A stretch of DNA of 50,215 bases, from the NCBI RefSeq assembly GCF_004010155.1, contig NZ_RRYH01000037.1:1-50215 (forward strand), given 5' to 3'. The stretch's first letter is position 1, and each line of letters opens with the position of its first letter. Position numbers and translations under genes: made by a program. This DNA is from Solirhodobacter olei (lineage in GTDB: Bacteria; Pseudomonadota; Alphaproteobacteria; Rhodobacterales; Rhodobacteraceae). The notes beneath the pieces are model-generated. The model saw only the letters and a list, made by a program, of their open reading frames with translations. It did no database searches and was not told the origin of the DNA. Shown here in pieces: positions 11,059-37,508 of the stretch.

Positions 11059-11079
11059 CGGTGCGCAATGAATGCGCAC
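11059..11079 (-). repeat. 21 bp palindromic repeat, copy 1 (inverted)
   Basis: Arms GGTGCGCA and TGCGCACC form a perfect 8 bp stem around a 5-base loop. The loop reads ATGAA here, the reverse complement of TTCAT in the other three copies. It lies between rpiA and the gene at 11175. Confidence 0.8.
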
Positions 11080-26669: not shown

Positions 26670-26717
26670 GTGCTCCATTGGAAAGAAATCCGCCACGCCA
26701 GGAAGCCGTTGTGACGG
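26670..26717 (-). ncRNA. SAM/SAH riboswitch upstream of metK
   Basis: The minus strand carries P1 arms CCGTCAC (26711-26717) and GTGGCGG (26690-26696), enclosing the conserved loop AACGGCTTCCTGGC. A short linker leads to AATGGAGCA, whose GGAGC can form a pseudoknot with GCTTCC of the loop. This matches the SAM/SAH motif known from metK leaders of Rhodobacterales. GGAG is also the metK ribosome site, so ligand binding would hide it and lower translation when S-adenosylmethionine is plentiful. Confidence 0.93.
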
Positions 26718-26798
26718 TTCAAGCCTCTGAGTTAGACCTCGGCGGCACCCGGGTCAATGGTGCTGCCGTTTTTGTCCACAGGGGCGGCGCCGGCGCGC

Positions 26799-30758: not shown

Positions 30759-30927
30759 TAACGACTCCTTGGCTAAGCCTTACTTTATGGTGGGCCTTCA
30801 GGTCGGTTCGCGCAAGGTATTGTGTGGAAATAAAGCCGATGTGACAAAATCAAGCTCGGCCGCGTCATTTCTGCACGGATCCGCCCACCCTGCAGGCAGC
30901 TTCGGCACGCACCCGCCACCCCGCACG
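30759..30927 (-). other. Leader and promoter region of phoH
   Basis: No gene is seen. The part next to phoH (30780-30860) is relatively AT-rich and probably carries its promoter, but no clear -35/-10 pair could be chosen. The rest of the 644-base gap to 31402 is filled by two copies of the long repeat and one short palindrome. Confidence 0.3.
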
Positions 30928-31118
30928 GCAGAGGGCCGCGCCCGACCGCGGGCGGGCGCGGACCACGCCCCCGGTCTGTCCGTTTATGGTGAAGCCCCCC
31001 CATCGGCATACCCCGCCGCGCGGGTGAAGAAGCGCCCGCCCTCAGGGGCGGCCAGGCGCTGCCCGGTGGTGCTGCGCACCACGCATCGGGCGGGGCGAGG
31101 CCCAAGGCCCCGCCACCT
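30928..31118. repeat. Long interspersed repeat, copy 1
   Basis: The left arm GGGCCGCGCCCGACCG (30933-30948) is roughly complementary to the right arm at 31049-31064 (13 of 16). The conserved middle GGTCTGTCCGTTTATGGTGA starts at 30973. A second internal arm AGCGCC begins at 31031. It is the most diverged full copy and is followed at once by copy 2. Confidence 0.85.
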
Positions 31119-31124
31119 CGCGCA

Positions 31125-31310
31125 AGCGGAGGGCCGCGCGCGACCGCGGGTGGGCGCCTCAACGCCGCCGGTCTGTCCGTTTACGGTGAAGCTCCCCCTA
31201 CGCCATCCTCCTCCGCGCGGGTGAAGAAGCGCCCGCCCGTCGGGGCGGTCGGGCGCTGCCCGGCGGCACTTCGTGCCGCGTATCGGGCAGGGGCTGCGCC
31301 CTATCCCGCC
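31125..31310. repeat. Long interspersed repeat, copy 2
   Basis: The left arm is 31131-31146, and the right arm CGGTCGGGCGCTGCCC is 31246-31261 (14 of 16 paired). The middle GGTCTGTCCGTTTACGGTGA starts at 31170. A third arm AGCGCCCGCCC at 31229 can pair with the same right arm instead. The 21 bp palindrome abuts its end. Confidence 0.9.
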
Positions 31311-31314
31311 GTAG

Positions 31315-31335
31315 GGTGCGCATTCATTGCGCACC
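31315..31335 (+). repeat. 21 bp palindromic repeat, copy 3
   Basis: Identical to the copies at 19007 and 34962 (stem GGTGCGCA/TGCGCACC, loop TTCAT), preceded by GTAG, directly after the long repeat. Confidence 0.9.
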
Positions 31336-31402
31336 ACACCGCCCGCAAGCGAAAGGGGAAGGCCGGTTTTCCGCCCTCCCCCGTCTCGCGATCCCCTCCG
31401 GG

Positions 31403-31660
31403 TCAGCTCTCCGCACCCGCCTTGGGCGGCATCCCCGGCGCATTGCACACGGGCTTCCCGCTCGGCGCGATGCGCGGTGTCATGAAGGCCCCGGTGCCCT
31501 CGATGAAATACCAGTTCTGGCACCCCTCCGGGCTGGTCCAGAGGCCGACCGCCTCGGCCCGGGGATGGGCCAGCGGCTTGTCGAACCGCGCGTTGATCAC
31601 GCCCGAGCAGGCCGAAACCGCGGCCGACCCGATCAGGGCAAGCATCATCTTCATCCGCAT
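31403..31660 (-). CDS. Small lipoprotein with W-x-P-x-GCQ motif
   Basis: The 85-residue product has a lipoprotein signal (MRMKMMLALIGSAAVSAC, lipobox VSAC). The mature part contains GLWTSPEGCQNWYFIEG and FMTPRIAPSGKPVC. The same motif order occurs in the adjacent OmpA-type protein, so they share a small domain. GGGAGG precedes the ATG at 31660. It follows the OmpA gene by 14 bases, so the two form one unit. The role is unknown; a cell-envelope role is inferred. Confidence 0.75.
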   Translation of the reverse strand: MRMKMMLALIGSAAVSACSGVINARFDKPLAHPRAEAVGLWTSPEGCQNWYFIEGTGAFMTPRIAPSGKPVCNAPGMPPKAGAES

Positions 31661-31674
31661 CTGCCTCCCCCCTC

Positions 31675-32241
31675 TCACTGCTCGCACATGACTTCGACGC
31701 GGCGGTTCTCCGCCCGGCCCTCGGCTGTCGCGTTCGAGGCCCGCGGCTCGGTGTAGCCCAGCCCCTCGATGCTCGAGACGGTCGCCCCCGCCCCGCGCGC
31801 GATCGCGGCCACCGCGTTCGCCCGCCGCACCGAAAGGCGCATGTTGTAGCCATAGGCACCGACATTGTCGGTATGGCCGTGGATCACGTAGGAGGAGGAG
31901 CGGTCCTGCCGGAAGAACTCCCGCAGCCGCCGCCGCCCCTCGGGGCCGATCACGGCGCTGCCGCTCGCGAAAAGCTGGTCGGCCGAGGCCACGAGGCAGG
32001 GCCGCGCGGCACAGTCCATCGTCCCGTCGGCGCGGAAGCGCGGCGCCATGAACCCCTGCCAGCCGTTGTAGACCGCGTAATGCTGGCAGCCGTCCGGATC
32101 GGTCCAGATCGAAGGCTTGGCATCGTCGAGGTAATTTGCCGCCCGCGCGGCCCCGGCAGCGGCGCTCGCCGCAAGAAAGACCGCCGCGCCCATCGCGGCA
32201 AGTCCCGATCCGGCATGCGCCGGCCGTTGGTCACTCGTCAT
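31675..32241 (-). CDS. OmpA family protein
   Basis: The 188-residue product has an export signal (about 10-38, GAAVFLAASAAAGAARA). A segment IWTDPDGCQHYAVYNGWQG and FMAPRFRADGTMDC is shared with the next gene. A C-terminal OmpA-like peptidoglycan-binding domain follows (about 90-188: SSSYVIHGHTDNVGAYGYN, LSVRRANAVAAIA, GLGYTEPRASN, GRAENRRVEVMC). GAGAGG lies before the ATG at 32241. It probably sits in the periplasm holding the wall. Confidence 0.85.
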   Translation of the reverse strand: MTSDQRPAHAGSGLAAMGAAVFLAASAAAGAARAANYLDDAKPSIWTDPDGCQHYAVYNGWQGFMAPRFRADGTMDCAARPCLVASADQLFASGSAVIGPEGRRRLREFFRQDRSSSYVIHGHTDNVGAYGYNMRLSVRRANAVAAIARGAGATVSSIEGLGYTEPRASNATAEGRAENRRVEVMCEQ

Positions 32242-32460
32242 AGAGGCACCTCTCTCGCACTCGTACAAACACACGGAAGGGGAAGGGCACATCCCTCCCC
32301 AGACCCCTGAACTGTGACCGCCCGCGTCGGATTTGTGAAGAATTTCAGGCGCGCGCCGTGGCCCTTCGGGCGACAGAGGCGACTACAACCCGAAATTGTT
32401 TAGTCTCGAGCGCCAATCAGCGGAAAAGTGTCCCCGCCGCGCGCCTGTCCCCGCCCCGGA

Positions 32461-33777
32461 TCAGGCCGGATCCACCACCGTCCCGGCCAGCGAGTTGGGA
32501 TCGGCCCGGGTGATTCGCACCCGCGCGATCTCGCCGATCAGCCGCTCCGGCGCCTCGGCATGAACCGCCTGCAGATGTTCCGACTTGCCGGTGATCTGCC
32601 CCGCCATCCGGCCCGGCTTCTCGAACAGGACGGAGGTCTCGCGCCCCACCATCGCCTCCTGCGCCGCGCGTTGCTGGCGGGTGATCAGGGCCTGAAGCCG
32701 CTGCAGCCGCTCGTCCGCCTCGGCCGGATCGACGCCCGGCTTCTCCGCCGCCGGCGTCCCCGGACGGGCGGAGTATTTGAACGAGAACGCCGCGCCGTAG
32801 CCCACCGCCTCGATCAGCGCCAGCGTCGCGGCGAAATCCGCCTCGGTCTCGCCCGGGAAGCCGACGATGAAATCCGAGGTCAGAAGGATATCCGGCCGCG
32901 CCGCGCGGATCTTCTCCACCAGCCGCAGATAGGCCTCGGCCGTATGCTTGCGCGCCATCGCCTTCAGGATCCGGTCCGACCCGGACTGCACCGGCAGGTG
33001 CAGGTAGGGCATCAGCTCGGCCACCTCGCCATGCGCGGCGATCAGGTCGTCGTCCATGTCGTTCGGGTGCGAGGTCGTGTAGCGGATCCGCTCCAGCCCC
33101 TCGATCTTCGCCAGCCGCCGGATCAGCCCGCCAAGCCCCGCCTGCCCGCCATGCCAGGCGTTGACGTTCTGGCCCAGGAGCGTGATCTCCTTCGCGCCCT
33201 TGTCGACCAGCCCCTCGGCTTCCGAGATCAGCCGCGCCTCGGGGCGCGAGACCTCGGCGCCCCGCGTATAAGGCACCACGCAGAAGGCGCAGAACTTGTC
33301 GCAGCCCTCCTGCACGGTCAGGAAGGCCGTCGGCCCGATCGAGCGGCGCGGGCGCTCGGGCAGATGCTCGAACTTGTCCTCTTCGGGGAAATCGGTGTCG
33401 ACGGCGCGGGCCCCGCCCGCCACCGCCTCGGCCATCGCCGGCAGGCGGTGATAGCTCTGCGGGCCGACGACGAGATCGACCAGCGGCATCCGGCGCAGGA
33501 TCTCCTCGCCCTCGGCCTGGGCGACGCAGCCGGCCACGCCGATCTTGAGATCGGGCTTCGCGCCCTTCAGCGGCCGGAGGCGGCCGAGGTCGGAATAGAC
33601 CTTCTCCGCCGCCTTCTCGCGGATGTGGCAGGTGTTGAGGAGGACCATATCCGCCTCCTCGGCCGAGCCCACGCTTTCGTAGCCGGCGGCGCCCAGCGCC
33701 TCGGCCATCCGTTCGCTGTCATAGACGTTCATCTGACAGCCGTAGGACTTGATGAAGAGCTTTTTCGTCTCGGTCAT
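32461..33777 (-). CDS. miaB: tRNA-2-methylthio-N6-isopentenyladenosine37 methylthiotransferase
   Basis: The 438-residue radical-SAM enzyme makes ms2i6A37 in tRNA. The N-terminal UPF0004 cluster cysteines are in [21 protein letters not shown] and [11 protein letters not shown]. The radical-SAM Cys triad is in [20 protein letters not shown] domain ends it ([19 protein letters not shown]). Length is typical. It is divergent from the next gene. In related genomes it directly precedes phoH; here it is separated. Confidence 0.96.
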
Positions 33778-33892
33778 GGCCCCGGTCCCTTTCCGGCGGC
33801 CCTCCTACTCCCAAGGGGCCGCCGCCGCAACGCTTGCATTGCGTCCGGGCCTGGGGGAACCTGCCCGTTCCAGCGCCACCGCCGGAGGCCCT

Positions 33893-34762
33893 ATGGAGCA
33901 CGCGAGCCTCGACGCCTTCCTTTCCGACCGTGCCGCAGTGCTCGCGGACGGGCCGGTGGCCCTGATCTTCGCCGAGGACGCGGTAGAGCTGGAAAGCACG
34001 ATCCGCCACCATCTCGGCCTCGGCTTCCCGACGCTCCTGCTGCTGGGGCAGGAGACGGGCGGCCTGCCGCGGGACCTGCTCCCCCGCCTTCACCGCATCG
34101 CCTATGACATTCATGCCGAGGGGGCCGTGCCCGCCGCCGTCAACCGGCTGATCGCGGCGGCGCCGGGGACATGGTTCTACTACGGCTACAATGCCGAATA
34201 CCTGTTCTACCCGTTCTGCGAGAGCCGCTCGATCCGCGACATGCTGCGGTTCCATGCCGAGGAGCGGCGCGACGCCATGCTGGCCTATGTGGTGGATCTC
34301 TACGCCGCGGACCTCGGACGGCATCCCGACGCGGTCTCGCTGCAATCGCCGCTGATGGACCGCTCGGGCTATTACGCGCTCGCCCGGCCGGACCCGGCGC
34401 GCGGCGGCGCCCCGAAGGACCGCCAGCTCGATTTCTTCGGCGGCCTGCGCTGGCGGTTCGAGGAGCACATCCCCGAGGACCGCCGCCGCATCGACCGCAT
34501 CGCCCTCTTCCGCGCCGCGCCGGGGCTGGAGCTGCGCGAGGGGCACCTCTTCAATGTCGAGGAATACAACACCTATGCCTGCCCCTGGCACAACAACCTG
34601 ACGGCCGCGATCTGCTCGTTCCGGACGGCCAAGGCGCTGAAGCTGAACCCGGGGTCGACCTTCGACATCCCGGATTTCCGCTGGCACAACTCGACCCCTT
34701 TCGAGTGGCGCTCGCAGCAGCTGATGGACCTCGGCCTGATGGAGCCGGGCCAGTGGTTCTGA
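33893..34762 (+). CDS. Glycosyltransferase family 2-like protein, conserved in Rhodobacterales
   Basis: The 289-residue product starts MEHASLDAFLSD after GGAGG. It has FYYGYNAEYLFYPFCESRS, RRDAMLAYVVDLYAADLG, RQLDFFGGLRWRFEEHIP and ends FRWHNSTPFEWRSQQLMDLG. The long highly conserved blocks fit a family usually labelled glycosyltransferase 2 in this order, but no classic DxD donor site is clear, so the enzymatic call is weak. There is no signal peptide. It ends just before a long repeat. Confidence 0.75.
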   Translation: MEHASLDAFLSDRAAVLADGPVALIFAEDAVELESTIRHHLGLGFPTLLLLGQETGGLPRDLLPRLHRIAYDIHAEGAVPAAVNRLIAAAPGTWFYYGYNAEYLFYPFCESRSIRDMLRFHAEERRDAMLAYVVDLYAADLGRHPDAVSLQSPLMDRSGYYALARPDPARGGAPKDRQLDFFGGLRWRFEEHIPEDRRRIDRIALFRAAPGLELREGHLFNVEEYNTYACPWHNNLTAAICSFRTAKALKLNPGSTFDIPDFRWHNSTPFEWRSQQLMDLGLMEPGQWF

Positions 34763-34781
34763 GCCCCTTGCACCCTCACAA

Positions 34782-34957
34782 ACGGAGGGCGGCGCCCGAC
34801 CGCGGGTGGGCGCGAACCACGCCCCGGTCTGTCCGTTTATGGTGAAGCTCCCCGAAAACCCGAACCGCGCCGCGGGGTGAAGAAGCGCCCGCCCGGGGGG
34901 CGGTCGGGCGCTGCCCGGCGGTGCTGCGCACCACGCATCGGGCGGGGGCTAGGCCGC
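34782..34957. repeat. Long interspersed repeat, copy 3
   Basis: The left arm GGGCGGCGCCCGACCG (34787-34802) and right arm CGGTCGGGCGCTGCCC (34901-34916) pair at all 16 positions, counting one G-T. The middle GGTCTGTCCGTTTATGGTGA starts at 34826. The internal arm AGCGCCCG is at 34884-34891. The 21 bp palindrome follows. Confidence 0.9.
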
Positions 34958-34961
34958 GTAG

Positions 34962-34982
34962 GGTGCGCATTCATTGCGCACC
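34962..34982 (+). repeat. 21 bp palindromic repeat, copy 4
   Basis: Same sequence as at 31315 and again right after the long repeat. It is 27 bases beyond the stop of the convergent FKBP gene and could end both transcripts. Confidence 0.9.
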
Positions 34983-35009
34983 CCCACATCGCTCGGCGTC
35001 TCCGCCGCC

Positions 35010-35438
35010 TCAGGCGATCTCGACCACGGCGACCTTGAAGGTCAGGTCCTGCCCGGCCAGCGGATGGTTGGTGTCGAGCACCACCACCTCCTCGGTGACC
35101 TCGGCCACCGTGACCGGGATCGCCCCGCCATCGGCGCGCGACAGCTGCAGCCGCGTGCCCGGGTCCAGCGGAATGCCGTCGGGCACCTGCGCCCGCGGCA
35201 CTTCCTGCCGGCCGGAGGGATCGTGCGGCCCGTAGGCGTCGGCCGCGGGCACGGTGACCGTGCGCTCCTCGCCCGGCGCCATGCCGAGGATGGCGGCGTC
35301 CAGCCCGGGGATGATCTGGCCGCTGCCGGCGGTGAACTCCAGCGGGTCGCGGCCTTCGGAACTGTCGAACACGGACCCGTCGGTCAGGGTGCCGGTGTAA
35401 TGAATGCGTACGGTGTCGCCCGATTTTACCTGGGTCAT
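35010..35438 (-). CDS. FKBP-type peptidyl-prolyl isomerase (SlyD/FkpB-like)
   Basis: The 142-residue cytoplasmic protein has the FKBP core (VRIHYTGTLTDGSVFDSSEG, IPGLDAAILGMAPGEERTV) with an inserted flap (about 70-120) as in SlyD. It ends VVLDTNHPLAGQDLTFKV, the SlyD/FkpB signature. It lacks the His-rich metal tail of SlyD. The role is catalysis of proline isomerisation and chaperoning. Confidence 0.93.
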   Translation of the reverse strand: MTQVKSGDTVRIHYTGTLTDGSVFDSSEGRDPLEFTAGSGQIIPGLDAAILGMAPGEERTVTVPAADAYGPHDPSGRQEVPRAQVPDGIPLDPGTRLQLSRADGGAIPVTVAEVTEEVVVLDTNHPLAGQDLTFKVAVVEIA

Positions 35439-35558
35439 GGGGAATCTCGCTCTGCGGGAGGAATTTCAGAGGCCGCGCCAGTGGGCGCAGGTACTCCGGC
35501 TCCCCTAAAGCCTGCCCCCCATGGCCCCGGATGTAAACCCCGCCGCCCCCGCCCGGCA

Positions 35559-36506
35559 TCATCCGGCCGCCGCGAAGCGATCCGTCGCTGCCCGCAGCTG
35601 CGCCATCATCTTCGGCCCCCCATGGCCTTCGTCCTCCACGATCACCAGCCGGCTCGCTGGCCAGCGCCGGTGCAGTGCCCAGGCTGTGCCCACCGGAAGC
35701 GAGATATCCCGCCGGCCGTGGATCAGGACCGCCGGAACATGCCCAATCGCACCGATCCGGGGCAGGATCTCGGACCCGGGCCCAAGGAAGCCATCGGCGG
35801 CGAAGTAATGCGTTACCAACGTCGCGAAGCTCAGCGCAGCCGCCTCGTCCATCCGTCGCCCCGGCCCGCCGGCGGCGAGTGAGACATGCACCTCCTCCCA
35901 GGCGTTCCAGGCCTGCGCCGCCGCCAGCCGCTCCGCCCGCGTCCCGGCCGAGAGCCTGCGCGCATAGGCCTTCACCACCCGCTCGCCTTCGCGCCGGCCG
36001 GAGGCGGCCTCGAACGCCTCCCAGGCCTCGGGAAAGATCCGTCCCATGCCCTCGACGAGCCAGTCGACCTCGGCCCGACTCGTGGTCGCCACCGCCGCCA
36101 GCGCCAGCGCCTCCACCCGGCCGGGATGCTCCAGCGCATAGGCCAGCGCGAGCGTCGCCCCCCAGGAGACGCCCGCGACCAGCCAGGCATCGATCCCGAG
36201 ATGCGCCCGCAGCCGTTCGATATCCGCGATCAGCACCTCCGTCCGGTTGCCGCCAAGGCTCTCCGGCACCTCCCCCGCCAGGGGCCGGCTCCTCCCGCAG
36301 CCGCGCTGGTCGAGCCCGATGAGGAGGTAGCGTTCCGGATCGAACCAGCTGCGATACGACCGGCTCCCGAGCCCGCTGCCCGGCCCGCCATGCAGGTAGA
36401 GCGCCGGCCGCCCCTCCGGGTTGCCAGAGGCCTCCCAATAGACCTCCGCCCCATCCCCCATCGCCAGATGGCCCGAGGCAAAGGGCTCCTGCAATTCATC
36501 CGACAC
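35559..36506 (-). CDS. pip: Prolyl aminopeptidase (S33 family)
   Basis: The 315-residue alpha/beta hydrolase removes N-terminal proline. The oxyanion motif LYLHGGPGSGLG, DQRGCGRSRP, nucleophile GVSWGATLALAYA, and the late His in EDEGHGGP fit the family. It starts with GTG, supported by AAGGA seven bases ahead. It is a single gene on the minus strand, divergent from the next genes across long repeat copy 4. Confidence 0.9.
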   Translation of the reverse strand: MSDELQEPFASGHLAMGDGAEVYWEASGNPEGRPALYLHGGPGSGLGSRSYRSWFDPERYLLIGLDQRGCGRSRPLAGEVPESLGGNRTEVLIADIERLRAHLGIDAWLVAGVSWGATLALAYALEHPGRVEALALAAVATTSRAEVDWLVEGMGRIFPEAWEAFEAASGRREGERVVKAYARRLSAGTRAERLAAAQAWNAWEEVHVSLAAGGPGRRMDEAAALSFATLVTHYFAADGFLGPGSEILPRIGAIGHVPAVLIHGRRDISLPVGTAWALHRRWPASRLVIVEDEGHGGPKMMAQLRAATDRFAAAG

Positions 36507-36572
36507 GGCATTCCTTCCAACACGTTCGCCGGCACCCTAACGCCCCCGCAAGACCGATCCCACCCCACCCGG

Positions 36573-36741
36573 CAGAGGGCCAGCGCCCGTCCGTGGGTGG
36601 GCGCGAGCAGCGAACGCGGTCTGTCCGTTTACGGCGTAAAGAACCCCTTCGGCATTCTCGCGCGGTGAGGTGCGAGAAGCGCCCATCCGTCCGGGCGGAC
36701 GGGCGCTGGCCCGGCGGCGCTGCGCGCCTTGTCCCGGGCCG
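36573..36741. repeat. Long interspersed repeat, copy 4
   Basis: The left arm GGGCCAGCGCCCGTCCG (36577-36593) and right arm CGGACGGGCGCTGGCCC (36696-36712) are exact complements over 17 bases. The centre GGTCTGTCCGTTTACGG starts at 36618. GTCCG here replaces GACCG of the other copies, with the partner changed to match. It fills most of the 315-base gap between pip and the dehalogenase gene. Confidence 0.92.
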
Positions 36742-36821
36742 GGGCCCCGGAGGCACGCCCGCCCCCGTCCCGCCCTTCCCCTCCCCTGCCGCCTGTGCCA
36801 GTCTCCGCGCCGGAGGCCCCC

Positions 36822-37508
36822 ATGACCATCACCACCTGCGTCTTCGACGCCTACGGAACGCTCTTCGACGTCAACGCCGCCGCCCGCGCCGCCGCGGCCG
36901 AGCCGGGCGGCGAGGCGCTCGCCGCCATCTGGCCGCGCCTGGCCGAGGACTGGCGCCGCAATCAGCTGGAATATTCCTGGCTCCGCGCCATCACCGGCGC
37001 CCATGCCGACTTCCGTCAGGTCACCGCCGAAGGGCTGGACTGGGCGATGGAGGCCGCGGGCCTTGCCGACCCCGCTCTCCACAGCCGCCTCATGGCGCTC
37101 TACGACAACCTCGCGGCCTACGCGGAAGTCCCCGCCATGCTCGCCACGCTGAAGGCGCAGGGCCTCGCCACCGCGATCCTGTCGAACGGCGCGCCGGGCA
37201 TGCTCGCCTCGGCGACGGCCTCCGCCGGGATCGGCGACCTCCTCGACGCCACCCTCTCGGTCGAGAGCGTCGGCATCTTCAAACCTGCGCCGCAGGTCTA
37301 CGACCTGGTCGGCCAGCACTTCGGCTGCGCGCCCGCCGAGGTCCTCTTCGTCTCCTCCAACGGATGGGACGCGGGCTGCGCCACCGGATACGGCTTCACC
37401 ACCGCCTGGGTGAACCGCGCGGGCCTGCCGGTGGACCGCCTGCCCTGGCGCCCCGCCCATATCCTGCCCGACCTCCACCCCATCCCCGATCTCGCGAGGC
37501 GCCTCTGA
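36822..37508 (+). CDS. Haloacid dehalogenase, type II
   Basis: The 228-residue HAD enzyme hydrolyses L-2-haloacids. The nucleophile Asp is in VFDAYGTLFDVN, motif II Ser in AILSNGAPGML, Lys in ESVGIFKPAPQVYDL, and the last acidic/metal part in FVSSNGWDAGCATGYGF. The last block with WDAG is the type II dehalogenase hallmark, not a generic phosphatase. GGAGG precedes the ATG. The stop overlaps the next ATG (TGATG). Confidence 0.9.
   Translation: MTITTCVFDAYGTLFDVNAAARAAAAEPGGEALAAIWPRLAEDWRRNQLEYSWLRAITGAHADFRQVTAEGLDWAMEAAGLADPALHSRLMALYDNLAAYAEVPAMLATLKAQGLATAILSNGAPGMLASATASAGIGDLLDATLSVESVGIFKPAPQVYDLVGQHFGCAPAEVLFVSSNGWDAGCATGYGFTTAWVNRAGLPVDRLPWRPAHILPDLHPIPDLARRL

Follow-up and report, generated by a model that had tools for sequence, protein, structure and literature searches.

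Four copies of an intergenic repeat in Solirhodobacter olei

The window analysed here is a stretch of 50,215 nucleotides, contig NZ_RRYH01000037.1 of Solirhodobacter olei (Rhodobacteraceae), and it carries four copies of an intergenic repeat between ordinary genes. The repeat has a bulged hairpin and a tail hairpin whose pairing is maintained from genus to genus by changes in both partners, has amplified within lineages, is absent from syntenic sites in related genomes, and resides at gene 3' ends in both orientations. The four copies had been noticed from the sequence alone (hereafter, the original prediction), and a covariance model (R1; threshold E ≤ 1e-3) built from 31 copies of the same genome placed every one of them on the + strand. 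Copies 1 (30927..31094; 124.1 bits) and 2 (31125..31291; 126.3 bits) belong to a GACCG subfamily, copy 1 with an imperfect right arm. Copy 3 (34781..34946; 110.1 bits) is flanked by the 3' ends of the convergent genes at 33893-34762 (+) and 35010-35438 (−), and copy 4 (36572..36742; 150.4 bits; GTCCG subfamily) lies in the divergent gap between the genes at 35559-36506 (−) and 36822-37508 (+). The best other copy of copy 4 had a blastn E value of 1e-42, which excludes chance. The copies measure 166-171 nt, near the lower end of the predicted length of about 170-190 bp and short of its upper end. The predicted conserved middle, GGTCTGTCCGTTTAYGG, was found in all four.

The arms had been said to pair over 16-17 bases. 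This holds for copy 4, where 17 of 17 bases are complementary (36577-36593 with 36696-36712), and for copy 3 (94% over 17), but in copy 1 the left arm fails to pair with its own right arm at three of 17 positions. The proposed paired change, GTCCG with CGGAC in copy 4 and GACCG with CGGTC in copies 2 and 3, is present in the sequence, as is the additional G-T of copy 3. For the most part, however, this change separates two subfamilies within the S. olei genome. The four copies alone are therefore weak evidence for compensation, which was confirmed in larger sets.

Anatomy of the repeat

The predicted fold comprises one long hairpin and, after it, a tail hairpin; the long one consists of an outer stem, a bulge on the 3' side only, an inner stem and a variable apical loop that holds TTTA. 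The long form of about 168 nt has the outer stem GGGCCAGCGCCCGTCCGC / GCGGACGGGCGCTGGCCC, the inner stem GGGTGGGCGC / GCGCCCGCCC, a 3' bulge of 6-7 nt, an apical region (about 75 nt) that contains the conserved TTTA, and a tail hairpin with an asymmetric bulge. Copy 4 shows this arrangement on the + strand: the left arm of the outer stem at 36577..36593, the left arm of the inner stem (GGGTGGGCGC) at 36595..36604, an apical motif conserved between copies (GGTCTGTCCGTTTACGG) at 36618..36634, the right arm of the inner stem (GCGCCCATCC) at 36679..36688, the bulge at 36689..36695, the outer right arm at 36696..36712 and the tail at 36708..36742. Here the inner stem was taken from the fold of the copy and from the consensus fold, the bulge from the fold, and the tail from the sequence. 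Because the foot of the tail, GGCCC, is also part of the outer right arm, the two pairings would compete. Copy 4 folded more stably than its shuffled versions (z = −2.97 on the + strand and −2.80 on the − strand).

TTTA was retained in 32 of 33 copies from S. olei and in 167 of 185 copies from other genomes. In the short forms of other genera the stems are kept, the bulge is mostly kept, and a few bases replace the apical region. Modules are also nested: four S. olei copies (L102, L103, L104 and L105) have an extra insert of about 50 nt within the stem, which in L104 and L105 replaces the usual apical region. In another genus, represented by genomes G136 and G445, a further outer inverted repeat (GGCCTGGAGCGG/CCGCTCCAGGCC) frames the element (L324 and L327; seen by eye in three G136 copies) and would extend it to roughly 240-270 bp. 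Absent from the original prediction were the inner stem and the bulge on one side of it, the tail hairpin, the short forms, the genome-wide number and the placement at gene ends.

Compensated changes and strand asymmetry

We compared pairing in three alignments: A1, with 31 copies of the S. olei genome; A2, with 28 copies from 15 genomes and 10 genera, aligned with MAFFT on sequence alone; and A4, with 97 matches fitted to the model, which leans to it and holds a few antisense or partial rows. Changes on both sides of a pair outnumbered every control with slid partners. In A2, 94.2% of cells pair and both sides had changed in 61 cells, against 11-20 for slid partners and 15.8 after shuffling; the corresponding counts were 125 against 10-34 in A4 and 39 against 0-9 in A1. 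Individual S. olei copies frequently carry breaks in the left arm (columns 7, 10, 14 and 16-18) opposite an intact right arm, and the tail is the helix with the most pairs changed on both sides (4/7). The G136 left arm, GCCGCGCCATCGCCGACCCGC, differs wholly from that of S. olei and still pairs. The predicted fold is thus conserved by evolution while its letters change, and the original claim of selection on a base-paired structure held in all three alignments.

That claim had also set the structure against a protein. Copies with over half of their length within a called gene numbered 0/33 in S. olei, 1/28 in relatives and 3/87 in named database records (here and below, among the matches listed), genes being called from codon usage by a home-made program trained on the loci themselves; one S. 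olei copy overlaps a gene call by 74 bp. This near-absence rules out a protein-coding repeat. A known RNA family was ruled out by Rfam, in which the window copies had no match at the gathering score (best E 2.3, in the region of copies 1-2).

G·U pairs outnumbered A·C mismatches in each alignment, by 58 to 9 in A2, 80 to 9 in A1 and 204 to 37 in A4. Between records the count was 42 to 15 (p = 0.0005) with two GU-rich columns omitted, in 53 rows of 91 aligned, with each locus represented once (L196 and L204 belong to the same genome, and others are perhaps near kin), in an alignment fitted to a model termed R2. Since a double-stranded palindrome should give parity, this excess indicates that one strand counts. 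Among the private changes of resident copies the excess is not clear: 14 G·U to 8 A·C in S. olei (51 copies), 1 to 3 in G136 and 2 to 4 in G445, or 17 to 15 pooled, the G136 and G445 rows being those at least 80% like the consensus (37/40 and 15/20). Set against 42:15, this ratio of 17:15 suggests but does not prove that selection falls on source copies while they propagate and not on residents.

Distribution and amplification within lineages

The model from S. olei copies was searched over this genome (4.78 Mb in 122 contigs) and its relatives. R1 gave 110 matches in S. olei, dispersed over the contigs; about half are full length, and many are short forms of 68-80 nt. Among the relatives 18 of 41 genomes matched, all of them within the 25 genomes of the same family, with none of the 16 others. 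With R2, 99 of 150 genera of the family matched (one genome per genus, S. olei included), whereas in a sample of 289 genomes across the class only four did, namely S. olei and three others of the same family, with no match outside Rhodobacteraceae. At most 18 candidates per genome were scored in the genus survey, under strict filters, and at most 150 in the count for high-copy genomes, so that copy numbers are lower bounds; they range from 0 to at least 148 per genome, with at least 122 in G136 and at least 148 in G445. A pattern scan found the repeat in named records that include those of Leisingera, Ruegeria, Roseovarius, Pelagimonas, Paracoccus, Rhodobacter, Thioclava and Frigidibacter, all Rhodobacteraceae; this named set is biased, being drawn from the matches listed with a pattern that prefers arms like those of S. 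olei. One plasmid record, of Paroceanicella profunda, had a 67-base match and no phage record had any, which rules out a plasmid- or phage-borne element. In Pararhodobacter oceanensis three short-form copies stand in a row (L208).

The nearest neighbour of a copy came from the same genome in 51 of 51 cases for S. olei, 40 of 40 for G136 and 19 of 20 for G445 (110/111 together; the G136 and G445 copies being the best-scoring ones), and in 121 of 135 cases overall, against 33.7 expected. Several syntenic sites were empty. The gap that holds copies 1 and 2 spans about 545-570 bp between aligned blocks but 112-169 bp in the relatives G003, G006, G004 and G002; by reading, the element is absent there from G001, G002, G003, G004 and G006, and R2 had no match in the corresponding loci (L221-L225 and L227-L231). 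The gene end beside copy 3 is likewise element-free in these five genomes, but its next neighbour differs and G006 ends about 100 bp on. Two G136 sites of 345 and 450 bp between aligned blocks measure 83 and 39 bp in G445, where they are empty; at S. olei site L035 the distance is 76 bp, against 660 bp in G003. The resemblance of copies within a genome, the empty syntenic sites and counts of at least 122 and at least 148 together argue for lineage-specific amplification. Selection may therefore act during mobilisation instead of on resident copies. Tandem copies with a period near 205 bp occur in G006 and G004. Arrays of this period (about 205 bp) are present at L063, L080, L141, L169 and L201, in one metagenome-assembled genome of the S. 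olei genus; those at L063 and L080 lie inside long stop-to-stop open frames, which are frequent at such G+C.

Placement at gene 3' ends

Placement was assessed for 87 of 97 named matches (cut, partial and antisense ones omitted), 33 S. olei copies and 28 copies of relatives, from which 11 without genes on both sides were then dropped (1 from S. olei, 2 from relatives, 8 named). The 32 S. olei copies comprised 14 convergent, 7 codirectional sense, 10 antisense and 1 divergent; the 26 of relatives 8, 7, 8 and 3; and the 79 named ones 37, 20, 14 and 8. The distribution was quite different among the 242 gaps of 60 bp or more that hold no element in the named loci: 35 convergent, 126 codirectional and 81 divergent. 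From this comparison we concluded that the repeats sit behind genes and avoid promoters, with no preferred direction.

A mobile repeat and its alternatives

We consider it probable that this is a non-autonomous structured repeat of Rhodobacteraceae, similar to a miniature inverted-repeat transposable element (MITE), which is mobile and is selected via a strand-specific folded intermediate. Source copies would propagate through a single-stranded intermediate, RNA or single-stranded DNA of the + strand as oriented in the window, and an enzyme would recognise the intermediate by its fold. Inserted copies would be tolerated at transcript ends, away from promoters, and then decay. Residents may serve as orientation-independent 3'-end hairpins, as barriers to exonucleases or transcription, as suggested for other intergenic palindromic repeats.

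Several observations weigh against this account. The contrast between 42:15 and 17:15 reaches p = 0.06 only. Counted in the same rows of G136 and G445 and in 24 of 31 S. olei rows, changes shared by up to three copies lean towards G·U, by 15:5 in G136 (p = 0.04), 14:3 in the S. olei A-type copies (p = 0.01) and 9:4 in G445, and the private changes of the A-type copies alone stand at 9:3; the lean of the shared changes could reflect selection that acts on residents, or have been inherited from sources that were themselves biased. Nor does the bias separate RNA from single-stranded DNA, because in DNA, too, G·T is more stable than A·C. The site between two genes that we take, from their protein starts, to be cysS and cimA is occupied in Ruegeria, Roseovarius, Pelagimonas and one uncultured member of the family, and one locus is shared by S. 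olei (L025) and L191. Part of the copies may thus be old and useful. At cysS-cimA, L136 has the opposite orientation to L187, L172 and L126, which suggests that these copies arrived separately. A target-site duplication could not be placed, the intergenic flanks of relatives being too diverged to align and the joints not located. Finally, searches for Y1, Y2 and reverse transcriptase genes yielded no mobilising enzyme; DDE transposases and tyrosine recombinases were not searched.

The same placement could arise if the repeats work where they lie, as transcript-end structures (an exonuclease barrier, a bidirectional terminator or an RNase substrate) whose fold is kept by host selection. The 3'-end and convergent positions, the recurrent occupation of cysS-cimA, the G·U lean among the less rare changes of residents, and the different GC-rich hairpins that relatives carry where copies 1-2 would lie by synteny (seen by eye) are all in keeping with such a role. 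A terminator-like hairpin outside the element was found at 21 of 114 gene ends with the element and at 90 of 264 controls (p = 0.002), as if the repeat replaced the terminator. This first positive result became weak once stratified: in windows of like length the difference shrinks (5/20 vs 19/59, 2/25 vs 16/43 and 10/34 vs 55/162). In addition, codirectional copies show no bias of orientation (7, 7 and 20 sense against 10, 8 and 14 antisense in S. olei, relatives and named records, respectively), although one strand is favoured, and 51 of 150 genera of the family had no match under the strict filters. We regard such a resident function as unlikely, if worth keeping in mind.

An expressed family of small RNA genes, each with its own promoter on the + strand, might likewise account for the one-strand bias of G·U over A·C and for the conserved TTTA of the apical region. 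Short forms, however, keep the stems without that region, and no conserved promoter was apparent outside the element in alignments judged by eye (no promoter scan was run), so that this reading seems improbable. It is more doubtful still that the repeat is of the REP/REPIN kind and owes its movement to a RAYT (Y1) transposase, or that an IS91-type (Y2) enzyme or a reverse transcriptase moves it, despite its bulged hairpins at gene ends and one Y1 gene in S. olei, since Y1 genes were found in only 3 of 23 genomes, Y2 genes in 5 of 30 and reverse transcriptase (RVT_1) in 10 of 30, and no element lies near five Y1 loci (best E 0.27), though the enzyme may since have been lost.

The three enzymes, absent from most carriers searched, were thus rejected as movers, and none showed a visible tie to copy number; RVT_1 was missing from S. 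olei, G006, G015, G021, G067, G068, G136, G147, G159 and G445. No related autonomous transposon was seen among about 70 of the 110 S. olei matches whose sequence was examined, DDE families not having been searched. A neighbouring gene as partner was also rejected: when stop-to-stop frames from 28 loci were clustered, three groups of 3-5 loci emerged, in which all 12 frames overlap the elements themselves, and the remaining groups were two pairs of loci.

Surroundings of the window copies

The genes around the window copies are ordinary, with no mover among them. Pfam matches identified PhoH, OmpA, a UPF0004/radical-SAM/TRAM protein, a glycosyl transferase, an FKBP, an alpha/beta hydrolase and a HAD hydrolase; an 85-aa protein had no Pfam match. 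A second short palindrome, GGTGCGCATTCATTGCGCACC, occurs in the window at 31315, 34962 and 19007 (+) and at 11060 (−). It is a direct repeat on the + strand beside copy 2 (31310..31335; D17) and copy 3 (34957..34982), and counted over the S. olei copies it lies within 250 bp of 12 of 29, with one other occurrence in 71 kb of the same, mostly coding, loci. The window also holds a SAM/SAH riboswitch (26671-26720, −; 61.5 bits) and a tRNA gene (346-432, −).

Comparison with known repeats

RIME and Bru-RS of Rhizobiales are, like this repeat, palindromic intergenic repeats of Alphaproteobacteria. R2 matched nothing outside the family, their own sequences not having been compared. REP/BIME sequences with their RAYT resemble the repeat in having bulged hairpins at gene 3' ends and a high copy number; the repeat is much longer, Y1 was unmatched in 20 of 23 genomes, and no copy lay near five Y1 loci. 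For integron attC sites, which go with an integrase and a cassette array, the comparison extends to layout: the present copies are dispersed over contigs.

Of the hallmarks of a MITE, inverted terminal arms, the lack of an open reading frame and a dispersed occurrence are present. According to PMC2229807, ERIC, RUP, Correia/NEMIS and other bacterial MITEs share with the repeat a length of 100-200 bp, pairing of the 5' and 3' ends into a long stem, dispersal, and the lack of an enzyme of their own. The repeat differs in its tail hairpin past the right arm, its one-sided bulge, its modular apical region and its family-wide compensated evolution; with flanks too diverged to place the joints, no target-site duplication was seen.

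The Caulobacter methyltransferase-associated intergenic repeats (CIR; Chen & Shapiro 2003, as described in PMC2229807) are alphaproteobacterial and intergenic, about 110 bp long, with a two-arm RNA fold, no open reading frame, an unexplained mode of movement and an exposed GANTC. Many tails of the present repeat carry TTGANTC: 15 of 23 single-genus copies, 40 of 40 in G136, 17 of 20 in G445 and, among the matches listed, 32 of 74 named long forms. Tail words close to GATTC differ at N in 12 cases and at the other four sites together in 10. Unlike in CIR, the tail has GANTC in 0 of 33 S. olei copies, 4 of 28 copies of relatives and 2 of 45 named short forms; anywhere in the copy it occurs in 17 of 33 S. 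olei copies (18 sites against 13.4 expected). GANTC as a defining part of the repeat therefore fails on the tails of S. olei itself. The main hairpin and tail abut and share GGCCC, whereas the arms of CIR are joined by a linker. R2 had no match outside the family, in a sample assumed to include Caulobacter- and Brucella-type genera, and the aligned region did not end in the terminal 5'-TA-3' of CIR, its ends being alignment limits and not placed joints.

The PMC literature searched (including passages of PMC2864571, PMC4809877, PMC5107571 and PMC2229807) contained no description of the repeat; subscription literature lies mostly outside that scope. Conceivably, though we hold this tentatively, it represents a new class of bacterial mobile element. 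Such an element would be propagated as a folded, strand-specific single strand by an enzyme other than Y1, Y2 or reverse transcriptase, and would combine a fold kept family-wide despite sequence drift with nested modules and a tail possibly linked to GANTC methylation. In a family of ecological importance (roseobacters, Rhodobacter, Paracoccus), few structured elements would be as abundant as this repeat, and its compensated evolution is clear. PMC2229807 presents the movement of small palindromic repeats in bacteria as an open question; with many species, copy numbers from 0 to at least 148 and a fold specific to one strand, the present repeat allows that question to be tested directly. While membership in either group is not shown, we take the CIR/ERIC-type intergenic repeats for its nearest known kind.

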